32,217 bases of DNA from a bacterium (GTDB lineage Bacteria; Patescibacteriota; Minisyncoccia; Moranbacterales; UBA2206). The position numbers and the translations under genes were made by a program. A model generated the notes under the pieces. The model saw only the letters and a program-made list of their open reading frames with translations. It was not told the DNA's origin and searched no databases. Location: assembly GCA_030654225.1 (NCBI GenBank), contig JAURXY010000007.1, positions 1-32,217 on the forward strand, given 5' to 3'. Positions 1,356-24,644 of this stretch are shown here, piece by piece. Within the stretch, counting starts at the first letter, position 1. The number at the start of each line of letters is the position of its first letter.

Positions 1356-4300
1356 CTACCAAATATCCACTTTTCCCTCCGGCACAATTATTTTCAAAGC
1401 TTTTTCGAGCTCTGTTGTGTTTTGGATGCAGTAGGGGGTTTCGAGTTTTGACCCGCTGATTGAGAGATAGACTTTCATAGCACCTAGTTCGCAACGATCA
1501 AAAAGAGAAGAAAGATTTTTGAGAATGGATTTGTCGAAGTTTGGCGGGAGGGTGATGATGAGTTTGGAAGCCTTATTTAGATTCTCCCTCTCCTGTCGCG
1601 AGTACGCGACATCCTCTCCCGAGGGGAGAGGAGGATTGGAAATAGATTTTTTCATAGGCTCACCGCCATTGTTTCTTTGAGTGTTGAGAATTCTTTTGAA
1701 ATTTTCCAATTCATTTTCATTGACGACTTTGACTGTATCGCAAAGCAATTTGAAACTGCCATCTTTGTCGGAAATTTTTCCACTCGCCAAAATTATTTTT
1801 TCTTCTTGCCACATTGAGCCAGTCGCTTCCAGAACTTTGGGGAAAACCAAAATTTCCATAGTGGAATTCATATCTTCCAGTGTGACAAACATCATTGTTT
1901 TTTGATTTTTGAGAAAAATCTTTTTTATCTTGGAAATTATCCCACCCACTGACACCATTTGCCCAACTGACTGCGCTCCAATATTTCGAATTGGCAAGGC
2001 CATTTTTTCAAAATATTCTTGATAATCTTTGACGGGATGATCGCTAATATAGAGTCCAAGAAGTTCTTTTTCCCAAGTCAATTTTTCTTTTTTAGAAGCT
2101 TCTATGGAGGCTTCTAGTTTTATCGGGGGTAATTTGATGTCAGCGTCTCCAAAGAGGCTAGTCTGATTGGAATTTTTAAGCTTCTCGATGTTTTTTGAAT
2201 GCGCCAAGATATTTTCAATGGAGGCGATGATGGAATTTCTTTCGGAAAATTCTTCTAGTGCGCCAACCTTGGAAAGAGCTTCAATGGATTTTTTGTTGAG
2301 ATCTTTATGACGTACTCTTTCCACAAAATCATTAAGACTTTTGAACTTTCCATTTCTTTTTCTTTCCTCTACGATTTCATGGGCAATAGTGTGGCCAACA
2401 TTTTTAACGGCGTTTAGTCCAAAACGAATTTTTTTTGTATTTTTTTCATTGTCAGTTATCACCGCAAACTGTTCAAAACTCTCATTGACATTAGGTGGCA
2501 AAACTTCAATGCCCATTTCTCGGCATTCAGCAATTTCAATCGCTACGCGATCAATGTTGTCTTGATCAGAAGTGAGAAGGGCCGCCATAAATTCAGCTGG
2601 GAAATGTGCCTTAAGGTAGGCTGTTTGATATCCAACCAAGGCATAACAAGCGGCATGGCTTCTATTAAACCCATATCCCGCAAAAGGTTCAATATAGGCA
2701 AAAACTTTTTCTCCTACCGTGCCAGCGATACCTTGTTTCATGCAACCTTCAATGAATTTATGTTTTTGTTCTTGAATAAGCGCGAAGATTTTTTTGCCCA
2801 TGGCTTTTCGAAGCACATCCGCTTCGCCAAGCGTGAAACCGGCCAAGGCTTGAGCAATCTGCATAACTTGTTCTTGATAGACCGCTACTCCATAAGTTTT
2901 TTCCAAGATTGGTTTCAAATTTGGATGCAAATATTTGATTTCTTTCTCGCCGTGCTTTCTGGAAATGAAATCGGGAATCCAGTCCATTGGTCCGGGGCGG
3001 TAGAGTGCCACCATAGCGATGATGTCTTCCAAAACATTGGGTTTCAAAAGTTTCAGATATCTTTTCATTCCGGAACTTTCCAATTGAAACACACCGGTTG
3101 TTCTAGCTTCTTGCAAAAGTTTGAAAGTTTTTTCATCTTCCAGGGGAATATCATTGATATCAATATCTTGGCCATAAGTTTTTTTCACAATTTTCAAAGC
3201 ATTTTGAATGATGGTGAGATTTTTTAGTCCCAAAAAGTCCATTTTGAGAAGGCCAATTTTTTCCACAAAACTATATTTGGTGGAAGAAGAATATTGTGTC
3301 ACTGTGCCATCACCCTTGCCAGTGATTTTTTGCAAAGGGGTATATTCTGTCACGGGTTCTTTGGTGATAACCACTCCACAAGCATGCATCGAAGCATGAC
3401 GCACGACGCCTTCCAAGCGTGAGGCGCTATCAATTAATTTTTTTCCACCCTCATCATTTTTGTGCAAATCACTAAATTCTTTCACTGACTCCAGAGCATC
3501 AGAAATTGTGGAAAACATTGGAATCATTTTGGCAGTTTTGTCACAAAAATCATAGGGGAGCCCGAGAGCTCGTCCGGCGTCTCGAATGGCCGCGCGCGCA
3601 GCCATAGTTCCGAAAGTAATAATTTGAGCGACATGATCATTGCCATATTTTTGCCGAACATATTCCAAAACTTCATCTCGCCGGTCGTCAGCAAAGTCCA
3701 TATCCACATCGGGCATGGAGATTCGTTCAGGATTTAAAAATCTTTCAAACAGCAAATCATATTTTATCGGATCGATGTTGGTGATGCCGATAAGATAGGA
3801 CACGAAACTTCCCGCGGCACTGCCACGTCCTGGGCCCACCACGATGCCTTGCTCTTTGGCCCAGTTTACAAAATCTTGCACGATAAGAAAGTATGATGCG
3901 AAGCCAGTTTTTCGAATAACATCTAATTCATAATCCATTCTTTTTTGATGTTCTTCGGTTATGTTTTCACCAAATCTTTTTTTGAGACCATCACTGGTAA
4001 TTTTCAAAAGATATGTTTCGGCCGTATATCCTTCGGGTACATCAAAATGGGGGAGTTGAGTTTCGCCCAAAGTTATTTCCAAATTGCATTTATCCACAAT
4101 TTCCTGGGTGTTTGATAGTGCCTCCGGAACTTCCTTGAAATGGTCAGCCATCTCTTCAGGACTTTTGAGATAAAGCTCAAAATCCATCAAATTCATTCGA
4201 TTAGTTTCTGTGACTTTGCGGTTAGTCTGAATGCAGAGCAAAATATCTTGAATTACGTTGTCTTCCTTATTTATATAATGAATATCATTAGTGGCGACCA

Positions 4301-24151: not shown

Positions 24152-24252
24152 TACGAATTTATTTGTTAGATTCTAGATAGAATTTTTCTTTAAAAATTTT
24201 ACTGTAAGGAATATTTTTTTCACAAAACCTTATAATTAAGGAGGATTGTAAA

Positions 24253-24396
24253 ATGTCCAAAAAAGAACCCAGAGAGGATGAGGCAGAAAGACCAAAAATT
24301 TTCAAAAGACCTCGAAAAAAAATTCCTCAGTTTGTTAATATCCTTGGTTCAGATCGATCTGGTGGAGTTCGACCAGACATTAAAAGATTAAGATGA
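24253..24396 (+). CDS. 47-aa basic small protein
   Basis: aaggaggattgtaaaATG; MSKKEPREDEAERPKIFKRPRKKIPQFVNILGSDRSGGVRPDIKRLR*. Not in the ORF track. Confidence 0.6.
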   Translation: MSKKEPREDEAERPKIFKRPRKKIPQFVNILGSDRSGGVRPDIKRLR

Positions 24397-24399
24397 GCT

Positions 24400-24624
24400 C
24401 TTGACTTATGTGCTTGTATTCAGGAGCGTTGCACTGTCGAAAGTGTCGCCAAACGGCGATGCTAGGGTGTTGCTCTGCACCCACTTGTTTAGGCGCCAAT
24501 AAGGCGCTCGGGGAAAACTTACAATGAAGGACGTCCGGCGGTCCAAAAAAAGTTGTTCCCCAAAATACCTTGCCCTTGAATGGGCTGCCGGCCAAGGACT
24601 TCGATCCTTGCGCCGGCATTTTTT
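24400..24624 (+). ncRNA. Candidate structured ncRNA (multi-hairpin, own terminator), or structured 3' UTR of the 47-aa ORF
   Basis: GC-rich for the window; at least six hairpins including GGGGAA-AACTT.../AAGTTgTTCCCC and terminator TGCCGGCcAAGGActtcgaTCCTTgcGCCGGCATTTTTT. Confidence 0.6.
24586..24624 (+). terminator. Strong intrinsic terminator
   Basis: tgccggccaaggacttcgatccttgcgccggcatttttt. Confidence 0.9.
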
Positions 24625-24644
24625 ATTTCTTAAAAATTAACTAT

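Follow-up and report, generated by a model that had tools for sequence, protein, structure and literature searches.

An uncatalogued, genus-restricted candidate structured RNA element ending in an intrinsic terminator in a streamlined bacterial genome

Introduction

LOOT RNA is an orphan RNA linked to candidate-phyla bacteria, that is, to bacteria similar to the host of the element described here. It is listed as RF03000 in Rfam 14 (PMC7779021). Searches of GC-rich intergenic regions yield orphan candidate structured ncRNAs (PMC8632094). T-box leaders (RF00230), like our element, consist of a chain of stems closed by a terminator; T-box-like leaders precede glyS and ileS in the genus studied here.

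Here we analyse a 228-nt element lying between a 47-aa open reading frame (ORF47) and a convergent gene. The window, meaning the whole stretch of DNA analysed, is a contig of 32,217 nt (C34) in an assembly of 1,005,678 bases and 34 contigs. A preliminary description had proposed that the element is a novel structured ncRNA. We find it to be an uncatalogued structured-RNA candidate restricted to its genus. If transcribed, it would add a structured RNA to a streamlined genome of 1 Mb; a limited literature search found no dedicated ncRNA study of such genomes.

Results

Composition and predicted fold

The preliminary description had reported a GC-rich stretch with successive stems, and a terminator at 24586 ending in six T residues. 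All the listed stems were present, displaced by no more than two bases from the positions given, and the terminator was found as described (Table 1). One listed stem, CACT/AGTG at 24432, occurs in the sequence but is not part of the minimum free energy (MFE) fold, and the list had missed the stem P1, which begins at the first base past the ORF47 stop codon. The P2b loop sequence GCTC (24472-24475) could alternatively pair with the P1 strand GAGC (24424-24427), as in the RNAalifold consensus of alignment A2. By eye, this pairing amounts to 5-6 bp in the window.

Table 1. Coordinates of the element, its predicted stems and the adjacent reading frame in the window
Feature	Position	Strand	Description
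Candidate structured RNA element	24397..24624	+	Hairpin chain P1-P6, then intrinsic terminator
P1	24397-24404 GCTCTTGA / 24420-24427 TCAGGAGC	+	8 bp; MFE and centroid folds
P2a	24442..24463	+	AGTGTCGCC-AAAC-GGCGATGCT
P2b	24465..24482	+	GGGTG/CACCC, loop TTGCTCTG
P3	24492..24508	+	GGCGC/GCGCT
P4	24510..24561	+	GGGGAA-AACTT / AAGTT-G-TTCCCC
P4b, inside P4	GGAC 24529-24532 / GTCC 24541-24544	+	
P5	24572..24585	+	GCCC-TTGAAT-GGGC
P6, intrinsic terminator	24586..24624	+	TGCCGGC...GCCGGCA (TGCCGGC-C-CAAGGA type stem), CTTCGA/CTCGA loop, T6 24619-24624
ORF47	24253..24396	+	47 aa; TATAAT 24231-24236 and GGAGGA upstream

The predicted MFE was -94.7 kcal/mol, against a mean of -70.3 for shuffled sequences (z -4.9 for 24397-24626; 0 of 200 shuffles folded as well). 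The MFE and centroid folds agreed, and z was still -4.1 when P5 and P6 were left out. However, 196 of 884 intergenic windows of the same genome (22%), scored in a similar way but against fewer shuffles, reached z <= -4.5, and fold energy alone is therefore not distinctive for the element. Many of the strongest-folding intergenic windows are terminators and long inverted repeats.

The element is GC-rich, as had been claimed. Its GC content is 52%, compared with a genome mean of 36.0% (sd 5.3), and only 0.33% of 223-nt windows reach this value. When the 285 intergenic regions of at least 150 nt were scored by their best 150-nt window, the region containing the element ranked seventh. Four of the six regions above it carry tRNA or tmRNA calls by ARAGORN, one is the 16S rRNA gene (L225) and the last encodes RNase P RNA (C8:9724-10058). 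By the GC-rich intergenic criterion of PMC8632094, the region of the element comes first in the genome once those with known RNAs are set aside. It is GC content together with conservation, not fold energy alone, that singles it out.

Comparison with known RNA families and classes

Rfam 15 covariance models gave no match at gathering score in the window, and at E <= 10 the matches were all to families of eukaryotes or viruses and were regarded as chance. No known Rfam family thus speaks against the novelty claimed in the preliminary description, which had recognised no tmRNA, SRP, RNase P or 6S signatures. A housekeeping RNA (RNase P, tmRNA or SRP) was rejected: besides the lack of an Rfam match, the distribution is patchy (3/7 congeners), and RNase P RNA and tmRNA are encoded elsewhere in the genome. 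The small bacterial SRP RNA model RF00169 matched none of the seven genomes of the genus (G000 to G006), although it matched 13 of 14 controls. No SRP core motif was seen by eye in the element; this and the patchy distribution make it unlikely that the element is the missing SRP RNA.

Several further classes were rejected. A simple repeat scan found no CRISPR array in the genome to go with a tracrRNA. The element is single-copy in the genome, which does not fit a dispersed hairpin repeat, nor, with only short, chance-like repeats in the flanks, a mobile element; phage and plasmid collections contained no match to it. A protein-coding function was dismissed on the absence of a reading frame common to the species and on indels of 1, 2 and ~21 nt. 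Neither a 79-aa minus-strand ORF (24380-24619) nor ORF47 matched Pfam.

Distribution

Homologues were sought by BLAST in 95 genomes, and with two covariance models, R1 for the 5′ domain and R2 for the 3′ domain, in the 132 genomes of the order. They were found in three of the seven genomes of the genus, namely the source genome (G000), G003 and G006. Neither BLAST nor R1/R2 detected the element in G001, G002, G004 or G005, and R1/R2 detected it in none of the 125 order genomes outside the genus. Extending R1 to 384 genomes of the phylum and R2 to 387 of the class yielded no homologue outside the genus. A match of R2 in G063 (E 0.019) falls in a DNA-methyltransferase-like reading frame and was set aside as chance.

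Conservation of the two domains

In G006 (L006:1937-2098) it is the 5′ domain that is retained, and P2a and P2b fall within stretches of 17 and 30 identical nt. This domain is followed by an unrelated-looking hairpin and a separate terminator, and a second copy of P5/P6 lies ~640 nt further on, past a 163-aa ORF. The G003 copy (L005:1881-2095) keeps P3 to P6 at 78% identity. P5 and P6 are the sole parts retained in all three species, and neither G003 nor the second G006 copy shows any change in P5. A separate terminator is present in every copy (window, G003 and G006), and homology ends at the T-run in all species. Counterparts of P1, judged by eye, are 6 bp with a bulge in G006 and weaker in G003, which has also lost P2a through a deletion of ~21 nt (by eye). 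The alternative pairing of the P1 GAGC strand with the P2b loop is 6-7 bp in G006 and mismatched in G003.

Between the window and G003/G006, third-codon-position identity in neighbouring genes is 0.59-0.76, and noncoding DNA around the element gave no alignment between species. Both halves of the element are therefore conserved at or above the synonymous level, a comparison limited by the coding genes of the region, which also hold identical runs of at least 30 nt, and by other intergenic islands (44-97 nt), which align at 82-93%. G003 and G006 are close relatives (93.7% in GGR at the nucleotide level) yet keep different halves, and four of the seven congeners lack the element. Neither half is therefore indispensable.

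The 37 pairs of P3-P6 were compared between the window and G003. Twenty-seven are the same, 5 are changed on one side, 2 on both sides (one in P4, one in P6) and 3 are broken, all three in P4. In G003, P3 has G-U pairs in place of Watson-Crick pairs; P2b reads GGGCG/CGCTC there, and shows one more double-sided change by eye. With the same substitutions redistributed over the paired columns as a null, covariation in this comparison of few sequences was not significant (P ~0.16 for double-sided changes, ~0.24 for breaks). The changes are suggestive of a conserved structure, not proof of one. The conservation of structure in relatives expected by the preliminary description thus held in part: pieces are conserved in two species, with some stem-keeping changes, but a deletion removes one hairpin and the covariation falls short of significance.

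Retention of P5 and P6 alone in all three species would be expected of an ordinary terminator preceded by neutral hairpin-rich DNA, and the intergenic DNA of this genome is generally hairpin-rich. However, the 5′ domain is nearly identical in the window and G006, P3-P4 is recognisable in G003 where flanking noncoding DNA cannot be aligned, and the GC content is exceptional. We consider this explanation very improbable.

Gene order and relation to ORF47

The genes of the window are arranged in the order U32 peptidase, DUF1653, ORF47, element, GGR-like FAD oxidoreductase (GGR, reverse) and glyS. The order in G003 is U32, DUF1653, GGR (reverse), element, a PaaX_M-domain gene and glyS; that in G006 is similar, with no DUF1653 match found at the locus. 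The element thus precedes GGR in the window but comes after it in these two relatives, and the location downstream of DUF1653/U32 where the preliminary description would have looked for homologues is consequently not general. The GGR block directly adjoins DUF1653 in G003, and U32 and GGR nearly touch in G004. One of the two, the element or GGR, has moved.

The change of side relative to GGR between species, the sharp end at the T-run and the mosaic copies would all fit an element that is left over from, or carried along by, a local recombination hotspot and that moves as a portable unit of transcription but has no role in the cell. The duplication around the 163-aa ORF in G006 and the presence of an unrelated unit in G001 and G005 also fit such an origin. 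It is made rather unlikely by the single copy, by flanking repeats that are short and chance-like, and by the lack of spread beyond the genus; moreover, GGR may be what moved.

There is no terminator between ORF47 and the element directly downstream of it, and a joint transcript is therefore quite possible. With TATAAT and a ribosome-binding site upstream of ORF47 and P1 starting right after its stop codon, the element could be the structured 3′ UTR and terminator of an ORF47 mRNA, protecting the mRNA or being released from it by processing. We regard this as unlikely: among 36 relatives none has a convincing counterpart of ORF47, which was found in this species only among those searched, and no such ORF precedes the copies in G003 and G006. 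Pairing of 24512-24525 with the ORF47 start (11/14) was rejected as a general antisense mechanism because G003 has no ORF47. No promoter common to the copies of the element was identified.

Other features of the loci

In the U32-GGR gap, G001 and G005 carry 'unit B' (L156:3266-3620 and L157:~1430-1790, both minus strand). It has a promoter-like TTGACA...TATAAA, tiny ORFs with ribosome-binding sites, a GC-rich folded core (z -3.75) and a terminator. Its two copies are 72% alike over 210 nt, with no Rfam match at gathering score. The sequence AAAACAGNATTTTTCAATTTTATCGATAAA is confined to this locus and is present in four of the seven genomes of the genus (L006:2100-2150 and 2795-2840, L005:2095-2145, and, on the minus strand, L156:~3635-3675 and L157:~1800-1845). 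It stands past the element terminator in G003 and G006, and ahead of a promoter in G001 and G005. Similar palindromic sequence (CTTTTTCTTTCCGCAAGAAAAAG and following) is found at 236-465 of the window and in intergenic DNA of G001/G005 (L156:~3760-3920, minus strand), which suggests a dispersed repeat family.

In G005 (C17), the T-box model RF00230 matched L261:12717-12891 on the minus strand with 59.9 bits (E 1.6e-12), short of its gathering score of 93. The matched stretch carries AAGGTGGTACCACG...CGTCCTTA and lies upstream of an ileS-like ORF (L261:9629-12709, minus strand); it is a putative tRNA-sensing leader in the genus. A weak T-box match (26.9 bits) with AGATGGAACCGCGAGATTAATCTCGTTCT is located upstream of glyS in G005 (L156:1920-2140, minus strand). 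This is the gap, between GGR and glyS, in which the element stands in G003 and G006. The 143-nt GGR-glyS gap of the window contains no TGGNACC motif.

Discussion

We propose, with moderate confidence, that the element encodes a structured non-coding RNA of ~230 nt that ends at a Rho-independent terminator. On this reading the RNA is restricted, among the genomes sampled, to some species of one genus and lies in a rearranging intergenic hotspot between the U32-peptidase/DUF1653 genes and glyS. The observations behind the RNA reading are a predicted fold that closes with a terminator, no match to any known family, the GC rank of the region and the conservation of separate domains in two other species. 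Against it count the abundance of intergenic hairpins in the genome, the non-significant covariation, the absence from four of the seven congeners, the dispensability of the halves and the want of an identified shared promoter.

Such an RNA would probably be sRNA-like. A terminator is present, no reading frame is shared between the copies and no co-directional gene lies directly downstream in the window; a trans-acting sRNA therefore fits best among the types considered. The element may have a transcript of its own or, in this species, form the 3′ end of one that includes ORF47; exposed loops, TTGCTCTG for example, could then mediate an action of the RNA in trans. In P1, the GAGC strand might pair either with the GCTC of P1 or with that of the P2b loop, giving two states; we offer this as a suggestion. 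A bolder proposal, quite improbable, is that the element stands for a new class of RNA, specific to the genus and able to adopt both of these states, and that it is carried as a portable transcription unit whose domains are swapped and pruned between close species. If the element is transcribed, its domain-wise loss in close relatives would provide a small case study of the origin and erosion of an ncRNA gene.

The possible alternative pairing, the terminator at the end and the T-box-like leaders of the genus would also be compatible with a cis-acting leader (riboswitch, T-box or attenuator) of a downstream gene. This is extremely unlikely. Unlike T-box leaders, the element has no TGGNACC motif, no T-box match and no tRNA-synthetase gene directly downstream; a convergent gene follows it in the window, and the genes that follow it in G003 and G006 have promoter-like sites of their own past the terminator.

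The element matches neither LOOT RNA nor any other Rfam family. The orphan candidates of PMC8632094 were judged on comparative alignments, whereas the element is represented by three partial sequences with covariation that is not significant. It nevertheless resembles those candidates in lying in a long GC-rich intergenic region of an AT-rich genome, in its hairpins and in belonging to no known family.
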